NCBI RefSeq assembly: GCF_000327505.1
Contig: NC_019942.1
Coordinates: forward strand, 434,001 to 498,000
DNA: 64,000 nucleotides
Source: Aciduliprofundum sp. MAR08-339
GTDB lineage: Archaea; Thermoplasmatota; Thermoplasmata; Thermoplasmatales; Aciduliprofundaceae
Direction: 5' to 3'
The first letter of the stretch is position 1; each line of letters starts with the position of its first letter. This document shows positions 9,675-45,104 of this stretch, one piece after another. The position numbers were made by a program, and so were the translations under genes. The notes under the pieces are model-generated. The model was given only the letters and a program-made list of their open reading frames with translations, searched no databases and was not told the origin of the DNA.

Positions 9675-11516
9675 TCATTTTTCCCATTTTTTGAGATATT
9701 CCTCGTAGCCCAGGTGCTTGAGCAGGGCCATGGCCCTTCTTATATCTCCTCGTTTGTAGTAAGCGTAGGCAAGGTTGAGCTCCGCTTCCCTGAATCCCCT
9801 ATCTAACATCCATGCACGTTTGAAGTGCTCCTCAGCCAATTCGTATTTCCTCGCCCGTAAATAACTCAACCCCAGGGCATTGTGAGCATACTTGTCCTCC
9901 ATACCTTTCAACTCCTTCCATCTGGATTCCTCAAAGAGCAGATGCGCAAAGCCCTCAGGTACAGATTGCCCTCGGGTTGTTTTTTCCTCTATGAGCATGA
10001 CCCTCCTTACAGCCTCTTCTCCCAGAATCTCAAGTTCCTTGGGAGTCAACTCGTCCATATTCTCTGGTACCTCCATACCTGCGATCTCCAGCAATCTTTT
10101 GGTGTTGAGATGCAGAGCATCATTAAGATTTTTTAACTCCCGACCGTGAATTCCATCAAGGATCCTCATAATACCCTCACAGGCATTGGATATGTTACCC
10201 TTTTCAATTTCCCTTTTCACATTCTCAAAAAGGGATCCAAGGTCCCTGTCCTCTACAAGTGCTGTTTTTTGTGTGCTTTCCAGGGTGGAAAGTTCCTCCG
10301 AGAGCATGCTCTTAATTCTCCCGTACTCCTTAACCTCCCTCGTTCTGCCCTCCAGTTTATCAAGGAGTTCTATCGCCTCCTGATTTCCGGGCTCAATCTC
10401 AAGCACTTCCTGCAGAGTTTCACGCGCATCCTTTCTCATGCTCCTCCGCATGTATATTCTGGCAAGGAGGATAAGACCACGAGAATCTCTCCTGAGTTTC
10501 AGGTACTCCATAACGGCGTTTCTGGCTTCCTCGTACCTCTTCAAATCAAAATAAAGATAGGCCTTGTTGAGATACGCCTCTGCAAAATTCTTATCAATTT
10601 TAAGCGCTGCATTATAACTGCGCATCGCTTCATCGTACTTACCCATGTACTTCAGCGCCACACCCCTGTTGTTCCAGAGCGCAGGCATATCCCTCCTTAT
10701 CTCAAGGGCCTTCTCATAGCATAGCAGGGCCTCACTGTACTTCTCCATTGAGAGCATCACATTGCCCCTGTTTATCCAGCAGGCCAGATTGCGGGAATTG
10801 AAACGCACGCATTGGGAATAGGCCTCTCCAGCCTCCTGCAGATCACCCTCTTCCTCAAGAATCTGCCCGAGGATCAGCCATGCCTCATCGTCCTTTACGT
10901 TGTCCTCAAGTATGGATGTGAGGATGGATATGGCCTCTTCAGTCCTTCCAAGGGCTGCTAGAATCCTTGCCTTGAGTTTCTTTCCCTCTGTTGTGGGCTT
11001 TATGCGAAGTGCATTTTCAACATATTCAAGCGCCTTATCGTAAGTTCCATTCTCCAGAAAATCGCGGGCCCATTGCAAAAGCGATGCCAGCTCCCCGGCA
11101 CTTGGAAGATAGCGCCCCTCCCTGGCCTCCTTGCCCCTCTCTTTCCTTGTGAGCTCTTCCTCCAGACCAAACTCAACGATTAGCCTCTCAAAATCGTTCC
11201 AGTCCATGAAAGTCAGATCTTCCCTGCCACGGAGATCATCAACACCCTCAAACACACCCGTTGTTATGAGCATCCACCTGATCTCAACGGTTTCAAGATC
11301 AATCAAATCCAAAACGTCCTCCCTCGTGACCTTGGGTCTTTTCAGAAATATCACCACGTAGTGCAAACTCTTGCCGGGCACGGGCATGTAGGCGTCAAAA
11401 ACAACGGTATCATCACGATAAACGCTGTTACGAATCTTAAATCCCATCTCCACTACCAGGCGGTTGCAGAGTTTGAAAAATTCGTCCATGGTCATATTCT
11501 CAATTTTCTCTCTCAT
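9675..11516 (-). CDS. TPR-repeat protein with N-terminal Mrr/nuclease-fold-like domain
   Basis: 613 residues. Residues 1-125 look like a restriction-endonuclease fold of the Mrr type: EMGFKIRNSVYRDDTVVFDAYMP, then YVVIFLKRP, with strands and helices in the expected order. The usual catalytic motif (D, E/QxK) is not clearly complete, so it may bind rather than cut. From about residue 145 on are TPR units, for example AWLILGQILEEEGDLQEAGEAY and NNRGVALKYMGKYDEAMRSY. A linker near residues 395-510 is followed by two or more further TPRs. The first gene of the pair overlaps it by 4 bp. Likely a cytoplasmic scaffold; partner unknown. Confidence 0.65.
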   Translation of the reverse strand: MREKIENMTMDEFFKLCNRLVVEMGFKIRNSVYRDDTVVFDAYMPVPGKSLHYVVIFLKRPKVTREDVLDLIDLETVEIRWMLITTGVFEGVDDLRGREDLTFMDWNDFERLIVEFGLEEELTRKERGKEAREGRYLPSAGELASLLQWARDFLENGTYDKALEYVENALRIKPTTEGKKLKARILAALGRTEEAISILTSILEDNVKDDEAWLILGQILEEEGDLQEAGEAYSQCVRFNSRNLACWINRGNVMLSMEKYSEALLCYEKALEIRRDMPALWNNRGVALKYMGKYDEAMRSYNAALKIDKNFAEAYLNKAYLYFDLKRYEEARNAVMEYLKLRRDSRGLILLARIYMRRSMRKDARETLQEVLEIEPGNQEAIELLDKLEGRTREVKEYGRIKSMLSEELSTLESTQKTALVEDRDLGSLFENVKREIEKGNISNACEGIMRILDGIHGRELKNLNDALHLNTKRLLEIAGMEVPENMDELTPKELEILGEEAVRRVMLIEEKTTRGQSVPEGFAHLLFEESRWKELKGMEDKYAHNALGLSYLRARKYELAEEHFKRAWMLDRGFREAELNLAYAYYKRGDIRRAMALLKHLGYEEYLKKWEK

Positions 11517-12385
11517 TGAAGCACCTCCCCGGGAAAACCAAGGCGCTTCAACTTTGCAATGAGGGCTTTTCTCTCATCCTCAAGCCCTTCCTCATCGTAA
11601 ATATTCAGAAGAAGAAGGTGGGCGTCAAGATTGTACTTGTCCTTCTTCACGACCTTTTTCAGGATTTCAGAGGCTTCGTGGTATCTTTTCAATTTAAATA
11701 GAGATAGGGCAAGATTGTACATGGCCTCCACGCTATTCGGATCTTCCTCAACAACCTTCGCGTAGATCTTGGAGGCATCCCCGTACTCTCCCAAATCAAG
11801 CAAAGCATCGGCAAGATTCTTCCAAGCACTCCTGTTGTCCCTCAGAATTTCCTCGTAGATAAGGAAGGCGGCGTCCCTGTCTCCCATGTCCATGAGAAGA
11901 CGTGCCTTGTGAATCTTGTACCCATCTCCATATTTCCTTATTAGAGCATCAACCAATTTGAGAGCCCTTTTAAAATTTCCACGTTCCCTCTCAATGAGGT
12001 AAAGGAGATAATCTCCCTCCTCTCCATCGACCTTCCTGGCAAATTTTTCAGCAAGGTGAAGATAGTAATCCTGATCAATTTCAAAATTTTCAAGGTATGA
12101 TGAGAATCTTCTGTGAAATAGAAGGGCAGCCCTCGCGAGAAGTGCATTATCCTGCTTGCTCCCCTTAAGCGCCTCCCTTGCCATGCTGTTAAGTTTACCA
12201 ATACCCATATCAGTGAGCATGCCCCTTTCAATTTCTATGGACAGATCTTCCTCATATGCACTGCACAAAAGGGATTTCCTGAGCAAGAAGGGATGCTCTT
12301 CCATGATTTTCAGTGAGCATTCCCTACAAACAGGACGCTCGGATTCCCGCCCACATATTATGCAATTCACAAAGTAATATAGCAC
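11513..12385 (-). CDS. TPR protein with N-terminal zinc-finger
   Basis: 290 residues. The N-terminus carries a CIICGRESERPVCREC zinc knuckle pair (CxxC...CxxC), then a helical region. TPR units occupy roughly residues 95-270 (DYLLYLIERERGNFKRALKLV, NLADALLDLGEYGDASKIY, NLALSLFKLKRYHEASEIL). The stop overlaps the start of the Mrr-like TPR gene by 4 bp, so the two products are probably made together and may interact. The start is uncertain: GTG at 12385 or GTG at 12370. The latter lies about 25 bp from a TATA-like TTTTTATT near 12395-12402 and just before the first Cys pair. Confidence 0.7.
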   Translation of the reverse strand: MLYYFVNCIICGRESERPVCRECSLKIMEEHPFLLRKSLLCSAYEEDLSIEIERGMLTDMGIGKLNSMAREALKGSKQDNALLARAALLFHRRFSSYLENFEIDQDYYLHLAEKFARKVDGEEGDYLLYLIERERGNFKRALKLVDALIRKYGDGYKIHKARLLMDMGDRDAAFLIYEEILRDNRSAWKNLADALLDLGEYGDASKIYAKVVEEDPNSVEAMYNLALSLFKLKRYHEASEILKKVVKKDKYNLDAHLLLLNIYDEEGLEDERKALIAKLKRLGFPGEVLQ

Positions 12386-19471: not shown

Positions 19472-20206
19472 ATGAACATGCGGCTAAAAATGAACATTAA
19501 GGATTTGAAAGAGATTACGAACCTTCTTCTCACGCTGGTATCTGAGGCAAAATTTGAGGTGAATCCCAGCGGGCTTAGTGTGAAGGCTGTGGACCCTGCG
19601 CACGTTGCAATGATCGTATTGAATGTGAACAAGGATGCCTTTTTGGAATTTGACACCGAAGAGGAGGAACTCGGAGTGGACCTTGATAAGGTCAGAGACA
19701 TTCTAAAACTCGCATCCTCTGGGGATGTGGTGGAGATTTCAAAGGATGGAAGTAAACTCACCTTCCTCATGGGAAACCTAACAAGAAGTATGCCCCTCAT
19801 TGATACCAGTGCACTCACCGTTCCCAAGGTTCCAAATCTGGTGCTTCCCGCCAAAGTCGTGCTTCCTGTCAAGGAGTTTGAGCATGGAATAAAGGCCGCA
19901 GAGAGCATATCAGATAACATAACTCTCCGCATCACGCCAACAGAGTTCGAGATGTACACCCAGGGTGACCAAGACGAGGCCAGACTGAACATACCAAAGG
20001 ACATGCTTAAAGAGTTATCATGCGACGAGCCCGTAAAGAGCATGTATCCTGTGGATTATCTGGTTAAACTTGTAAAGGCCATGGACTCTGCGAATGATCT
20101 AACCATCTACATGGGCACGGATTATCCCATAAAAATGGAGTTTGATATAACTGGAGGTGCGGGCAAGGGTGAGTACCTGCTTGCCCCGAGAATTGAGGGG
20201 GAGTGA
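19472..20206 (+). CDS. pcn: DNA polymerase sliding clamp PCNA
   Basis: 244 residues, the standard archaeal PCNA length. Two clamp domains are visible: the N-terminal VNPSGLSVKAVDPAHVAMIVL, the LGVDLDKVRDILKLAS interdomain part and a C-terminal YPVDYLVKLVKAMDSANDLTIYMGTDYPIKMEF. It forms a trimer that holds polymerases, FEN1 and ligase on DNA, loaded by RFC (large subunit at 33060). A C-terminal IEGE tail follows the LLAPR segment. The ATG at 19472 is 26-30 bp after the TATA box. ATGs at 19478 and 19490 are possible alternatives. Confidence 0.96.
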   Translation: MNMRLKMNIKDLKEITNLLLTLVSEAKFEVNPSGLSVKAVDPAHVAMIVLNVNKDAFLEFDTEEEELGVDLDKVRDILKLASSGDVVEISKDGSKLTFLMGNLTRSMPLIDTSALTVPKVPNLVLPAKVVLPVKEFEHGIKAAESISDNITLRITPTEFEMYTQGDQDEARLNIPKDMLKELSCDEPVKSMYPVDYLVKLVKAMDSANDLTIYMGTDYPIKMEFDITGGAGKGEYLLAPRIEGE

Positions 20207-33032: not shown

Positions 33033-33068
33033 TCACACTGACCCACCTTCACCCCTTTTTTATTTTTT
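33031..33068 (+). terminator. Candidate T-rich terminator after mini-gene
   Basis: AATCACACTGACCC followed by CACCTTCACCCCTTTTTTATTTTTT begins at the mini-gene stop codon. T-rich tracts of this kind terminate archaeal transcription. A near-copy of the leading 14 bases occurs at 43296-43309, also followed by a T run. Confidence 0.4.
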
Positions 33069-34364
33069 GAGCTCATTCAATATTTCCTTTGGATCCTTTT
33101 CTGTGAGGTAAGAAATTTCATCTTCGTTTAGATGCAAAATGCTCGTGTAGAGCCTTCTTACCCCCTCATCCTTATCATACAGGACTGAAAACTCCTGAAT
33201 AACATTATCAAGAACCTCATTTTTTGAAGTGTGGTAAATCCTTCCCAGTTTCATTCCCAAACTATCGCGAATTCCTCGTACCTTCTTGCTCCTTGACATT
33301 TGAGATAACCATGATGGGAACTGATACCTGCGAGCATGCTGCTTGTACTTCTCTTCCTTACCAACACTAACGCCTGCAATCATATCCATGGCGTATGCCC
33401 ATAGGGCGTACTGCTGCCTCCTTTTAACCCTCCCCAGATAAACATCCGCCCTGGACAGGTATTCGTAGGCTCTTACAAGATCCTCGGGCTTTGTGTACTC
33501 GAGAGGCATGTTTTCCTCAATCCAGAAAAGAACGTAGTCAGGAGTTTCGTCGAGATTGGTCAGGGCATTCTTGGCCTCCCAGAAATGCTCCGTGTGAAGC
33601 ACTACCAGCGTGGATTTGTAAATTTCATTCTTAACATCTCTGTATCCCGTGGCCCCGAGGTCATCCTCAGTCAGAATCTTCTTCCCCTGGGCAAGTGCCT
33701 GCAGATCGTTTATGGCTGCACGCAGATCTCCTCCAGATCTACCAGCAATGTAGGCGAGGGCAGTGTCCTGGCATTTTATACCCTCAGCCATGCATATCCT
33801 TTTTAGAACCTTCATTATCTGGGCCCTGGTAAGGGCCTTGAACCTAATCACGTAGGCGAGGGACTTAAGCGCTTTGCCCCAGGTTCCGCTGAAGAGAGAG
33901 TAGTAATCATTACCTATGAGAATTATGGGCTGTCTTGTGTTCTTTATGGTTTCCGCTATTGCCTTCTTACCCCCGCGGTCTCCATCCTTCACACCCTCGT
34001 ACAGGTTATCGGCCTCATCAAATATGATGAGCTTTCTGCCGCCCTTCTTTGAAGATATGAACTCTCCATCATCAGTGAATGTTTCATACACAGCACCACG
34101 AAGGGCTATCTCCTTTATCTTCTGCTCATTACGTATATCCGAGGCGTTGAGCTCTATAACTCCCCAACCCATCTCCTCGGCAAGAACCTTGGCCACCGTG
34201 GTCTTACCACATCCTGGTTTACCCACCAAAACCAAGGCTTTGTACCTGGGCTTACCCCTCTCCCAGTCCTGGGCCCATCTCAAAATTTCATTTATTGCCT
34301 TGTTGTTTCCCACAATGTCCCGAAAACGCCTGGGTCTGTACTTCTCAACCCAAGGAATGTCCAT
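33060..34364 (-). CDS. rfcL: Replication factor C large subunit
   Basis: 434 residues. The clamp loader large subunit opens PCNA and loads it on primer-template DNA. AAA+ motifs: Walker A VGKPGCGKTTVAKVL near residue 48, Walker B LIIFDEADNLY, sensor-1 ILIGNDYYS and an arginine-finger-region SGGDLRAAINDLQAL. The C-terminal part is helical. The C-terminus (EKDPKEILNELKK) carries no PIP-box, although most archaeal RFC-L proteins end in one. A small ORF lies just upstream on the same strand. Confidence 0.94.
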   Translation of the reverse strand: MDIPWVEKYRPRRFRDIVGNNKAINEILRWAQDWERGKPRYKALVLVGKPGCGKTTVAKVLAEEMGWGVIELNASDIRNEQKIKEIALRGAVYETFTDDGEFISSKKGGRKLIIFDEADNLYEGVKDGDRGGKKAIAETIKNTRQPIILIGNDYYSLFSGTWGKALKSLAYVIRFKALTRAQIMKVLKRICMAEGIKCQDTALAYIAGRSGGDLRAAINDLQALAQGKKILTEDDLGATGYRDVKNEIYKSTLVVLHTEHFWEAKNALTNLDETPDYVLFWIEENMPLEYTKPEDLVRAYEYLSRADVYLGRVKRRQQYALWAYAMDMIAGVSVGKEEKYKQHARRYQFPSWLSQMSRSKKVRGIRDSLGMKLGRIYHTSKNEVLDNVIQEFSVLYDKDEGVRRLYTSILHLNEDEISYLTEKDPKEILNELKK

Positions 34365-36273: not shown

Positions 36274-36516
36274 ATGGCAGTAAAAATATCCGCAGAATCG
36301 CTTAAGAAGGGCAAGGAGGTTGATATAACCTCACATGGAAACGCACCAAGAAATTTTAAAATCTCAATAAGGTACAACGAAACGTTTCAGAGGTTTGAGG
36401 TGTTCAGGCACTATTTCAGGACAAAAAAGAACGAGGTTGAATATCACAGCAAGAACCTGAAAGAGGTTGTGGATTACATAAAATCAATGTACGGCGTAGA
36501 ATTCGAAGTTGATTAA
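36274..36516 (+). CDS. Small hypothetical protein
   Basis: 80 residues, basic, with an alternating pattern (KISIRYNETFQRFEVFRHYFRTKKNEVEYHSKNLKEVVDYI) that suggests a small alpha/beta fold. TATA-like TTTTTATATAAG (about 36241-36252) lies about 24 bp upstream, consistent with a leaderless start. The 3' end overlaps the convergent zinc-ribbon gene by 4 bp. No family is recognised. Confidence 0.5.
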   Translation: MAVKISAESLKKGKEVDITSHGNAPRNFKISIRYNETFQRFEVFRHYFRTKKNEVEYHSKNLKEVVDYIKSMYGVEFEVD

Positions 36517-36710
36517 AACCAGGAGTCCAGAGTTTTTACACCCTTCAGATCTATTTTTACCTCCTCCCCCATGCGGACTCGCTCTATGTACTCCTCCAAG
36601 GTTTCCTCATCTGCAAGGCGAGCACGTTTGATCTCGTACTCACACTCTGCACAGTAAAGAGCAAATGGATCGTGAAGTTTCTTGCCACAAATAAGACACC
36701 TGTTCTCCAT
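36513..36710 (-). CDS. Zinc-ribbon mini-protein with PIP-box-like C-terminus
   Basis: 65 residues. The N-terminal zinc ribbon has CLICGKK and CAECEYE (C5, C8, C20, C23). A charged helix (ADEETLEEYIERVRMGEE) follows. The C-terminal eight residues are VKTLDSWF, closely matching the FEN1 tail QRSLDAWF (44085-45104), which is a PCNA-interaction (PIP) box; Val replaces the leading Gln. This suggests a small PCNA-binding protein, perhaps regulating replication or repair. A TATA-like TTTATTTATT on the minus strand (about 36734-36743) puts initiation at the ATG. The name and function are inferred from sequence only. Confidence 0.55.
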   Translation of the reverse strand: MENRCLICGKKLHDPFALYCAECEYEIKRARLADEETLEEYIERVRMGEEVKIDLKGVKTLDSWF

Positions 36711-36757: not shown

Positions 36758-38110
36758 CTACCCTGCATCCACAAGATTTATGCGCCTAAAAACCCGAATT
36801 TTTCGCAATTTTGGAGCGTTTCTGTAGTGAACCTTCAACTCACCACTCTTGCCCTGAATAGTCACACTACCTATACTCTCCTCATGAATGCCCGCGTTGC
36901 TCACTATCTTCACAAGTTCCCACTCACTCAACTCGTTTTTCAGCTCAAATTTGAATTTGACCATACCAAATATGTCGCTCTTTTCCCTGTAATCCAGACG
37001 CTCTTTAATCCTGCCAGCCTGCCTTATCTCTATCCTTGGTATTTTCTTGCCTATGAACTCCTCTATTCTTCGGAAATACTCCATTTCTTCCCTGCTAACG
37101 AATGTTATAGCCTTGCCCCGGGCATCAAGCCTCCCCGTGCGACCTATACGATGCACATAATCCTTCGGATACTGGGGCACATCGTAATTCACAACATGGG
37201 TTATGCCATGCACATCAATGCCCCTGGCAGCCACGTCTGTGGAGATCAATATGTTTATCTTGCCCTGCTTGAAGGCATCCATTGTTCTGCTGCGAGACGC
37301 TTGACGCATATCCCCATGCAATGCAAAGGCCCTGAAACCGTACTTCTGCAGGATCTCTGCCACGCTCTTCGTGTTTCTCTTGGTGTTGCAGAAAACTAGA
37401 TACTTTCCACCCTCATTTATTATGAGCGATGATAGTTTGGCTATCTTGTTTATCTCTCCCACCTCAACGTAGAACTGGGATACGTTCTCCGCAGTTATCT
37501 CATCGGCCGATAAAATTATCTTCTCAGGATTGCTCATATAATGTCTGGCAAGATTTATGATCTCCTGCGGCATGGTGGCGGAGAATAGCATCATCTGCTT
37601 CTCCCTGGGAGCCTTACTCAAAATCCAGCGAATGTCCTCTATGAATCCCATGTCCAGCATTCTGTCAGCCTCATCGAGCACAAAAATCTTTATTCTGCTC
37701 AGATCAAGATAACCTCTGCGCATGAGGTCCATTACCCTTCCCGGGGTACCTATAACCACGGAGGCGTGCTTGAGACCCCGTATCTGATTTTCCATGCTCA
37801 CTCCCCCATAAATAACCACCGTACTCTTTCCGTGACCCTTGGCCAGAATCCTTGCCACCCTATCAACCTGCTGAGCAAGCTCCCTGGTGGGAACAAGCAC
37901 TATTGCTTCCAACCCCCTGTTCAGCTTCTCAAATATGGGTATGAGAAAAGCAAGCGTCTTCCCCGAGCCCGTCTTGGACTGCACAATCAAATCCATTCCA
38001 TCAATTGCAGGGCCTATAACGCTCTCCTGCACCTCTGTTGGTTCCTTAAAACCATGAAGTTCAAGGACCTTTTTTGTTCCAATGGAAATATCCATCTCGT
38101 CAAATTTCAT
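36758..38110 (-). CDS. DEAD-box RNA helicase
   Basis: 450 residues. Q motif region FKEPTEVQE, Walker A QSKTGSGKT (about residue 45), motif Ia PTRELAQQ, DEAD in FVLDEADRMLDMGF, SAT in FSATMPQE, and the C-domain VIIDHGDMRQASRSRTMDAF-type and HRIGRTGR motif VI. The C-terminal 80 residues (KFKFELKNELSEWELVKIVSNAG onward) look like a small RNA-binding module. It unwinds RNA, likely in ribosome assembly or mRNA decay. The ATG at 38110 follows AAAGGAGATG; the ATG at 38119 is possible. Confidence 0.93.
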   Translation of the reverse strand: MKFDEMDISIGTKKVLELHGFKEPTEVQESVIGPAIDGMDLIVQSKTGSGKTLAFLIPIFEKLNRGLEAIVLVPTRELAQQVDRVARILAKGHGKSTVVIYGGVSMENQIRGLKHASVVIGTPGRVMDLMRRGYLDLSRIKIFVLDEADRMLDMGFIEDIRWILSKAPREKQMMLFSATMPQEIINLARHYMSNPEKIILSADEITAENVSQFYVEVGEINKIAKLSSLIINEGGKYLVFCNTKRNTKSVAEILQKYGFRAFALHGDMRQASRSRTMDAFKQGKINILISTDVAARGIDVHGITHVVNYDVPQYPKDYVHRIGRTGRLDARGKAITFVSREEMEYFRRIEEFIGKKIPRIEIRQAGRIKERLDYREKSDIFGMVKFKFELKNELSEWELVKIVSNAGIHEESIGSVTIQGKSGELKVHYRNAPKLRKIRVFRRINLVDAG

Positions 38111-38223
38111 ACTTATCATCTCCTTTTAGCACTGGACAGCTGAAAAAACATCAGTGCTTTTCACCTGCCCCATTCCTTTCAGATACATACCCCAAGGGGT
38201 TATAGTATTTAAAAGGTTGGAAT

Positions 38224-38769
38224 TTAGGGCACAAGCACCGCTGCAGCTACCACCGTGGTCCACTCACCGGGCCTCTCAACAACTGCCGTGGCCGTTGTAT
38301 TTGAAGTGAGCAGAATCTTGTCGTTGAGTTTCCAAACCCCTTTTACCTCATCCCACTCCAGATGACTTTGCAATCCAAGAGTGGAGGCGAGCATCTCAGC
38401 AGCTAGATCCTCCGCGTAGTCTCCGGCAGTTTTGGCAGTTTCTCCAAAGCTATGATGCTCGCTCAGATAACCATAGCGACTTCTATCCTTTGGAACTGCA
38501 AGGCCCACTGAGGCTGCTATCATACGATTCAGCTCGTTGCTGGAATTTTTTGCCATCACCACAAAAACAATCTGCCCGGGCTTGAGGAGTTTCACACCCT
38601 CCTCTCTCGAGATCATATCTGCGTTTGGAGGGAAAATGGAACTCACCTCAACAAGGTTGAACTGCGCAATGCCAGCATCCCTCAATGCCCTCTCAAAGGA
38701 TCCCAGTTTGCTCCTGTGCCTGCCCACTCCCTTTGTGAAGAATACCTTTGTGGGTACAAATCCAATCAT
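38224..38769 (-). CDS. pdaD: Pyruvoyl-dependent arginine decarboxylase
   Basis: 181 residues. It converts arginine to agmatine for polyamine synthesis and uses a pyruvoyl group formed by self-cleavage between the two serines of [10 protein letters not shown] (near residue 42-43). Length and segments such as [26 protein letters not shown] match the M. jannaschii enzyme. It overlaps the bpsA stop/start region by 4 bp and completes a polyamine operon. Confidence 0.93.
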
Positions 38770-39806
38770 CCTTTTCGCCTCGTTGCCATTGCAGTCACGA
38801 GAGATTCTTCGTCCACATACACCTCATCCTTCAACTCCACATATCCACGCACAAGAGGTTTCACATCATCTATGGCCTCCACCCTTATGAGTGTGGAGCG
38901 GTAGAAATCTGCATCTATGCTCCTATTTCCTGTCAGTTCCTCTATTCTACGGTAAATTATGTAATCCTCCGCAGCCAGCTCCAGATTTCCGCGCAGGGGA
39001 TACACATTAAAATCTCTGAGCATATCAGTTAAGACGAAATTCATACTTAGCAACCTTTTCTCTATCTCGTACCATTTTTTCAGGGATGCTTCGAGATGAG
39101 TGAGTCCAAAATAACCCGCAGAACCTTTACCCTTGAGCCCAGAAACCGCACGGGATAAAAACAGAGTTATGCCCTCAATTGTCTCCACGGGATCGGTGAT
39201 GAAAACATCAAATTTTCCACGGAGATCCAAATCTATGTCGTTCCGAACATCAAATTTCCTTACCTCAACAGGAAAGCCATATTCCCGGGCATTCTGATTT
39301 ATGAAATCTATGAGCCTGTCATCTATCTCCAAAACCACAATTTTTCTGGGCAGGCCTGTAAGGGCCATACCGAGACTTATGAGGTCATCATCACCCACAA
39401 CGAGAATATCCGCATTCTCAAGATCTCCACGCTCGTAGATGAATGCAATGCGGCGCATCACGTCCTCCTCTTTTATGTATCCCTGGTCGTAATCGGCCGT
39501 GGGCTTGGGCCTCTGGGATGTTATTTTCTTATATTCATCCAGAACCCCAAATGGATCCTCAACTATTCCCCGACCGTCACATCCAGGGCAGCGGGTATCA
39601 TAATCCTTAAGATTCAAACTCTCCCGCTCTTCAATACCCATGGGAGTGAGATAAAGTATACCCCCTCTGCTCTCAACTAATCCATCATCCATAAGGATTT
39701 TTAGCGTTTCTACAAATTCGTTCAGATCCGAATCCACGAGTTTAATTAACTCCCACGGGCTCCTTTCTCTGCTTAGGTACCTCAATATTTGCTTCCTCGT
39801 TCTCAA
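38766..39806 (-). CDS. bpsA: Branched-chain polyamine synthase BpsA
   Basis: About 346 residues. An N-terminal winged-helix-like region ([20 protein letters not shown]) leads to the N4-bis(aminopropyl)spermidine synthase catalytic domain: [12 protein letters not shown] zinc-type pair, [32 protein letters not shown] and [15 protein letters not shown]. It makes branched polyamines that protect nucleic acids at high temperature, a thermophile trait. The start is uncertain because the frame overlaps speD; TTG at 39806 or GTG at 39815 fit a wHTH start. Second gene of speD-bpsA-pdaD. Confidence 0.88.
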
Positions 39807-40149
39807 ATTCCACACCTCTCTCCAAGCGCACAAGATCCACACGGCTAGGGTTGAGCTTCTCCTTTATGTACTCATAGGCCAGATCCGCCTGCCGAGGGTC
39901 TCCACATGTGTATATGTCAAGCGTCACAAGCCCATATTCGGGCCATGTGTGAAAACTCAGATGTGATTCTGCTATCAAAACGATCCCGCTGGCACCCTCA
40001 GGGCGAAATTGATAATAATCAGAAGAGATCTTACTCAATTTTGCAAACTTAACTGCACCTTCAAAAATCTCCTTCATCCTTTCAACCCTAGCCAGGAGCG
40101 CTGGATCCACACCATACATGTCCGCTATGATGTGAATCCCGACAGCCAT
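39742..40149 (-). CDS. speD: S-adenosylmethionine decarboxylase SpeD
   Basis: 135 residues, prokaryotic SpeD. It makes decarboxylated SAM, the aminopropyl donor. The pyruvoyl precursor cleaves at Glu-Ser in AESHLSFHTWPEYG (about residue 61), and the active-site Cys is in DIYTCGDPRQA. The start ATG at 40149 follows AAGGTGA; GTG at 40158 and ATG at 40155 are alternatives. First gene of the polyamine operon; the 3' end overlaps the bpsA coding region. Confidence 0.95.
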   Translation of the reverse strand: MAVGIHIIADMYGVDPALLARVERMKEIFEGAVKFAKLSKISSDYYQFRPEGASGIVLIAESHLSFHTWPEYGLVTLDIYTCGDPRQADLAYEYIKEKLNPSRVDLVRLERGVEFENEEANIEVPKQRKEPVGVN

Positions 40150-40236
40150 CTTCATCACCTTCCATCTTTTTTCACCTCCATGGAGTGTAAGTGATGGTGC
40201 TTAATAGCATTTCCTATTTGAAAGTTACGGCCCGAA

Positions 40237-44084: not shown

Positions 44085-45104
44085 ATGGGTGTAAACCTAT
44101 CGGATATTGTTACGGCGCACGAGATTTCGCTAAAGGATCTCAAGGGAAGGGTTATAGCCATAGACGCCTACAATTCCCTCTATCAATTTTTAAGCATAAT
44201 TAGGCAGCCCGATGGCACACCACTAAGAGATTCCAGGGGGCGGGTCACATCCCACCTATCTGGCCTGCTCTACAGAACGGCCAACTACATGGCTGAGGGA
44301 ATCAAGCCCGTATATGTTTTTGATGGCAGACCTCCAGAACTGAAAATGAGAACAATTCAGGAGAGAATGCACGTCAGAACCCGTGCCCTAGAAGAGTGGG
44401 AAGAGGCCCTAGAGCGGGGGGATCTGGAAGAGGCCAGAACAAGGGCACAGCAAGCCTCATTTCTCACGAGAGATATGGTTGATGAGGCAAAAAAATTGCT
44501 GGACCACATGGGTGTACCGTGGGTTCAGGCACCCAGTGAAGGGGAGGCACAGGCGGCTTTTATGGCTCAACGGGGTGATGCGTACGCCTCCGCATCCCAG
44601 GACTTCGATTCACTGCTCTTCGGCACTCCGCGCCTCGTGCGTAACATGGCCATAACGGGAAAGAGGAAGTTGCCCAGAAAAAGGGTTTATGTGGAGGTAA
44701 AACCAGAAATGCTCGTTCTAAACGAAACCTTGAAGAATTTGGAAATAACAAGAGAGCAACTTGTGGATATAGGAATTCTGGTGGGTACAGATTTCAATCC
44801 GGGAATTAAGGGAATAGGCCCAAAAACAGCACTGAAACTCATAAAGAAATTCGGATCCCTGGAGAGGGTTATGGATGAGAAGGGCATCGTGATTGAAAAT
44901 TATGAGGAAATACGCAATATTTTCCTGAACCCCCCTGTAACAAATGAATACAAATTGCAGTGGATGTGGCTGGATGAGCAAAAATTGCTTGAGTTTCTCT
45001 GCGAAGAGCACGATTTCAGCAGGGAGAGAGTTCTGAGCGCCGTTGAAAAGATAAAAATGTTCAAAAAGTACAGAGAGCAGAGAAGTCTGGACGCTTGGTT
45101 TTAG
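44085..45104 (+). CDS. fen: Flap endonuclease 1
   Basis: 339 residues. It removes 5' flaps during Okazaki fragment maturation and repair. The N-terminal GVNLSDIVTAHEISLKDLKG, the catalytic Asp/Glu sets in AIDAYNSLYQFLS, PVYVFDGRPPELK, APSEGEAQAAFMAQRGDAYASASQDFDSLLFG, and the helix-hairpin-helix GTDFNPGIKGIGPKTALKLI are complete. The C-terminus QRSLDAWF is a PIP box that binds PCNA. Cotranscribed or closely linked to radB. Confidence 0.96.
   Translation: MGVNLSDIVTAHEISLKDLKGRVIAIDAYNSLYQFLSIIRQPDGTPLRDSRGRVTSHLSGLLYRTANYMAEGIKPVYVFDGRPPELKMRTIQERMHVRTRALEEWEEALERGDLEEARTRAQQASFLTRDMVDEAKKLLDHMGVPWVQAPSEGEAQAAFMAQRGDAYASASQDFDSLLFGTPRLVRNMAITGKRKLPRKRVYVEVKPEMLVLNETLKNLEITREQLVDIGILVGTDFNPGIKGIGPKTALKLIKKFGSLERVMDEKGIVIENYEEIRNIFLNPPVTNEYKLQWMWLDEQKLLEFLCEEHDFSRERVLSAVEKIKMFKKYREQRSLDAWF

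Follow-up and report, generated by a model that had tools for sequence, protein, structure and literature searches.

The window, meaning the whole 64,000-nucleotide stretch of DNA analysed here, encodes a 65-residue mini-protein that we consider, with moderate confidence, a candidate lineage-specific zinc-finger accessory protein of PCNA, which would act in replication or repair and dock on the clamp by a cPIP-like tail. Its translation is MENRCLICGKKLHDPFALYCAECEYEIKRARLADEETLEEYIERVRMGEEVKIDLKGVKTLDSWF, with a CxxC...CxxC arrangement and the end VKTLDSWF. Matches in 73 of 101 closely related genomes, with the reading frame preserved, confirmed that the gene is real. The gene and the neighbors relevant to the argument lie in the window as follows.

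36513..36710, minus strand: mini-protein gene, complete with its stop codon (65 aa, from translation; orthologues found)
36758..38119, minus strand: DEAD-box helicase gene, upstream of the mini-protein (Pfam; context only)
33060..34364, minus strand: RFC large-subunit-like ATPase (Pfam; context only)
19472..20206, plus strand: PCNA, the predicted partner (Pfam PCNA_N and PCNA_C)
44085..45104, plus strand: FEN1, with the canonical PIP tail QRSLDAWF (Pfam; for comparison)

The mini-protein gene follows the helicase gene on the same strand after 47 bp, and it lies about 16 kb from PCNA, about 2 kb from the RFC-L-like ATPase and about 7 kb from FEN1, with no operon in common. The original prediction had counted the presence of PCNA, RFC-L and FEN1 in the same window in favor of a clamp partner; Pfam confirmed all three genes, but because they are 2-16 kb off and do not form one operon, sharing a 64-kb window is weak evidence. 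Although archaeal RFC-L commonly carries a PIP, the RFC-L-like protein of the window ends in KEILNELKK and shows no obvious PIP-like tail. On the opposite strand, an 80-aa ORF (36274-36516, +) shares 4 bp with the 3' end of the mini-protein gene in a tail-to-tail overlap; it gave no Pfam match, and an ORF of similar size occupies the same place in genome G003. Elsewhere in the window, a TPR-like-looking protein (11513-12385, -) carries an N-terminal CIICG...CxxC zinc knuckle, and a polyamine cluster (38224-40158, -) contains a pyruvoyl arginine decarboxylase and a BpsA-like branched polyamine synthase, both by Pfam, and a probable AdoMet decarboxylase named by eye.

Profile searches at the class and phylum levels found convincing members of the mini-protein family only in the window's own archaeal order, where the named carriers are Aciduliprofundum and DHVE2 metagenome genomes, together with Thermoplasma-like genomes. 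We gathered 73 distinct members, 68 of which were aligned (alignment A2). Families of the genome set are labeled f1 to f6 below and genera carry g-numbers; by inference, f6 corresponds to Thermoplasmataceae or Thermoplasmataceae-like genomes. The mini-protein is dispensable, since four f6 genera (g10, g12, g16 and g25) are without it yet retain FEN1, DP2 and GPN, a point that weighs against the PCNA reading. A diverged copy hidden beside GPN in these genera was also considered, and inspection of these sites showed no comparable small ORF with CxxC. Genome G005 has two diverged copies (L065 and L016), with the tails LERWIR and LDEFF.

Matches to known families were weak. No Pfam or NCBIfam model scored above its cut-off for the window's mini-protein, no credible relative was found in the PDB by sequence, and a structure search of the PDB with the predicted model returned nothing at E < 3. 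For the Gin anti-sigma-G family (PF10764) the window protein scored 14.7 bits against a cut-off of 27, and the best of 28 members reached E 0.0018; DUF2116 (PF09889) was absent among the window protein's matches and reached E 0.056 with the best of 28 members. The weak likeness to the zinc-finger families Gin, DUF2116 and YvyF centers on the zinc-knuckle region wherever the matched stretch was displayed. The relatives proposed outside the order by the class and phylum searches were likewise weak and confined to the knuckle, and six of the eight that we fetched were DUF2116 proteins, so they were not accepted as orthologues; two Methanosarcina-type loci, in which the match was to a helix within a large protein, were rejected as well. 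A literature search, conducted mostly among papers available without subscription, found no description of the family. The earlier statement that no archaeal family of this form has been described stands as far as curated families go, and needs amending in that small or Cys4 PCNA partners, TIP and NreA, are already described.

The protein divides into a cysteine-containing head and a short C-terminal tail, with the following parts, all encoded on the minus strand.

36687..36698, minus strand: first zinc knuckle, C5-L-I-C8 (C5 and C8 invariant in 68 sequences)
36642..36653, minus strand: second CxxC, C20-A-E-C23, at the start of the predicted helix 21-28 (invariant columns; model)
36573..36599, minus strand: second predicted helix, residues 38-46, within the conserved acidic block that follows R29/R31 (alignment; model)
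36516..36539, minus strand: PIP-like C-terminal tail without Q, residues 58-65, VKTLDSWF (orthologues, matrix and model)
Tail peptide of the mini-protein, a candidate clamp binder: VKIDLKGVKTLDSWF

C5, C8, C20, C23 and R31 are invariant in alignment A2, suggesting that the four-cysteine head binds zinc. The AlphaFold2 model obtained with this alignment (mean pLDDT 86) consists of the knuckle, helix 21-28 beginning at the second CxxC, helix 38-46 and a less certain linker, with tail residues 61-64 forming one helical turn at moderate confidence (pLDDT 70-76). Judging from the model, the layout of the head is probably treble-clef-like.

Alignment of orthologues, proposed earlier as a check on the tail, revealed that its core is kept across the order: [LI][DE]x[FW] occurs near the C-terminus in 63 of the 73 members. 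When the last 22 residues were shuffled in 2000 trials, a procedure that ignores the common ancestry of the members, the core turned up in 3.3 members on average and in 11 at most. In the real proteins it is retained behind a linker that differs between members in both length and sequence. Among the 65 tails alignable on the core, position 4 is hydrophobic (L in 58, I in 7), position 7 is F or W by the search pattern, and at position 8 there are 24 cases of F or W, 12 of L and other residues in the remainder; the window protein has WF at positions 7-8. About ten members have altered tails, such as NVRSILEFP and RKENKLF, which counts against the PIP reading.

The tail of the mini-protein exceeds chance. 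Per 1500 proteins, about 0.15 are expected to end in [LIMF][DE]x[FW][FW] and about 0.004 in exactly LDxWF. A scan of the whole-genome DNA for the loose pattern followed by a stop gave 29 matches, while its reversed control gave 38, which means no enrichment of the pattern in itself; among its true occurrences in the whole genome, the only credible protein ends were those of the mini-protein and FEN1. The one other open match lies in a frame of 41 codons that nothing marks as a gene. We also built a tail matrix from 43 FEN1 and PolD DP2 tails of the same genomes, with the mini-proteins excluded. The window's mini-protein scored 18.9 bits and ranked first of the 70 window genes, followed by FEN1 (17.6 bits, itself in the training set) and a next gene at 4.3 bits, and 0 of 7000 random sequences reached its score. 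A crude count of C-terminal motifs had also picked up the Ogg family through LDL[YH]xW, which lies within a conserved stretch 15 residues before the end and was judged by eye to belong to the folded domain.

Compared to the FEN1 tail QRSLDAWF, from which the original prediction was drawn, VKTLDSWF has the same L-D-x-W-F core at the same C-terminal place, but the likeness ends there: Q stands at position 1 in FEN1 of 37/37 genomes and in the mini-protein of 0/35. The second aromatic is also kept in only some lineages of the mini-protein (LDSFF, LDSWF). FEN1 tails themselves vary in f6, where the second aromatic is lost or changed, or residues are added, in several genera (L163, L166-L169 and L172; QFRLDSFD, QTSLDGF, QSNLDLF, QSSLDAFGSPH). 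The mini-protein drops this aromatic in the same lineages, a parallel that speaks for the PIP reading. Position 7 follows the same clade-wise course in both proteins, being W in f1 and f4 and F in f3 and f6; DP2, by contrast, always has F or Y there. The residue agrees between mini-protein and FEN1 in 32 of 34 genomes, which favors a PCNA pocket in common, although this agreement rests on few independent changes, perhaps only one or two on the tree.

By its sequence, the tail is closest to the cPIP of PolD DP2 rather than to FEN1. The DP2 tails have no Q and in most cases one aromatic, with examples in KITLESFLGV from the genome of the window and FKTLEDFDDT, GKKLEDFI and KITLDNFFS from others. 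Q-less C-termini of this kind (TLESF, TLEDF, GLDMY) were seen at DP2 loci L185-L214, covering most of the order, and the DP2 of genome G018 seemingly has no such tail. The Pyrococcus abyssi cPIP, KKRVISLEEFFS, likewise has no Q and carries V at position 1, and in its crystal structure with PCNA the residues V1258, I1259, L1261 and F1264 are buried; the PIP-box glutamine is thus not strictly needed for PCNA binding (PMC7101311). Both the DP2 cPIP and the mini-protein tail are Q-less, with V at position 1, L at 4, an acidic residue at 5 and an aromatic at 7, and both form the extreme C-terminus behind a variable linker. They differ in setting, since the cPIP belongs to a polymerase subunit of 1000+ residues and also binds primase, while the mini-protein is marked by its zinc head and, in f1 and f4, by W at position 7. 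The earlier idea of a small PCNA partner gains from the conserved core and the matrix rank, and loses the FEN1 likeness outside the core, where the missing Q counts against it.

The gene neighborhood in f6 provides better context evidence than the 64-kb window, supporting and not decisive. The usual order there is PyrG, a small ORF, PolD DP2, GPN GTPase, mini-protein, SOD, Ogg2 and an NAD(P)HX epimerase-like gene, in which DP2 and the GPN-type ATP-binding protein were assigned by Pfam, and SOD, Ogg2, PyrG and the epimerase by eye from sequence. DP2 and GPN are also adjacent in f1 and in genomes that lack the mini-protein, so this pair is older than its link to the mini-protein. The immediate neighbors in f1, f3 and f4 differ and are not replication genes.

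Taken as a mechanism, the folded head would consist of a zinc knuckle of four cysteines at the N-terminus, a probable treble clef, and the short acidic helix, with the variable linker joining it to a PIP-type peptide at the C-terminus, (V/I)-(K/R)-x-L-D-x-(F/W)-(F/L/variable). This peptide would fold as one helical turn and enter PCNA's PIP pocket without a Q, as the DP2 cPIP does. Once docked, it could let the zinc head reach DNA, or reach or recruit a second protein, at the clamp; alternatively, the mini-protein may simply occupy the clamp and contend for it with FEN1 and PolD, like the TIP of Thermococcales. Sequence suggests the binding to PCNA, and either a recruiting or an inhibiting role of the head would be consistent with it. 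In a bolder form, which we regard as rather unlikely, the mini-protein would serve archaea of the Thermoplasmatales type as a dedicated zinc-finger subunit or regulator of the traffic between PolD, PCNA and primase: a free-standing cPIP on a zinc head would be able to dislodge either PolD or FEN1 from PCNA, or to take PolD off primase, as a p21- or TIP-like switch.

The tail could instead be a short motif for a different partner, its PIP likeness being convergence on the common L-D-x-F pattern. Such a motif is short, as illustrated by the 50 of 7000 random 18-residue segments (0.7%) that exceeded 8 bits in the tail matrix, and the missing Q in all members and missing second aromatic in many fit this explanation; the score of the mini-protein in the same matrix, the way its tail follows those of FEN1 and DP2 clade by clade and the PolD neighborhood in f6 argue against it, and we consider it unlikely. 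Another possibility is that the tail binds primase (PriS-PriL) instead of, or more strongly than, PCNA and regulates the hand-off between PolD and primase. The P. abyssi cPIP peptide, Q-less like the tail, prefers primase (KD 4 μM) to PCNA (49 μM; PMC7101311), and the f6 gene usually lies downstream of DP2. Against this, position 7 tracks FEN1 and not DP2; we consider this alternative distinctly improbable. We know of no report of FEN1 binding to primase. The least probable explanation, a redox or oxidative-stress factor or GPN GTPase helper co-regulated with SOD and Ogg2 and having a structural tail, draws on the conserved GPN-mini-protein-SOD-Ogg2 order in f6 and on the Thermoplasma-like genus g13, where the mini-protein stays by SOD-Ogg2 with DP2-GPN elsewhere, but SOD and Ogg2 are not immediate neighbors in f1, f3 and f4, and the tail is left unexplained.

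Non-core PCNA partners in archaea are few, namely NucS, NreA/B and TIP, and lineage-specific ones hint at clamp regulation yet to be recognized. The mini-protein family offers a tiny, testable candidate in Thermoplasma-like and Aciduliprofundum-like archaea. The PIP motifs of this order, those of FEN1 and PolD included, are relaxed from the textbook QxxLxxFF, so that motif searches based on the consensus would miss partners.

Compared to known small partners of PCNA and polymerases, the candidate accessory protein resembles TIP, the Thermococcales inhibitor of PCNA, which is also tiny (64 aa), confined to one archaeal lineage and proposed to carry a PIP; TIP differs in its PH-like partial domain, its putative N-terminal PIP, the lack of described zinc ligands and its lineage (PMC4929162), and its layout is not that of the mini-protein, where the zinc knuckle is N-terminal and the motif C-terminal. 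NreA often combines an N-terminal Cys4 metal domain with a C-terminal PIP motif, but at about 400 aa it includes a large conserved body, for which the 65-aa mini-protein has no counterpart (PMC4929162). PBP1, the small subunit of the Sulfolobus PolB1 holoenzyme, is likewise a small archaeal zinc-finger polymerase accessory, and differs by its 97 aa, predicted C2H2 finger, glutamate-rich tail and binding to PolB1, with no PIP reported (PMC5418573). These three proteins are regarded as functional analogues of the mini-protein, and nothing found here points to homology. In DUF2116 (PF09889, a probable treble clef), profile comparison showed a similar HCIICG...C knuckle over about 23 columns, but the second cysteine pair is CxxxC and the C-terminus is hydrophobic and probably transmembrane, in contrast to the PIP-like tail. 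DUF2116 proteins from elsewhere in the phylum (L230-L233, L235 and L236), with a hydrophobic C-terminus, have the zinc knuckle in common with the mini-protein, and a distant kinship between the two families is possible.
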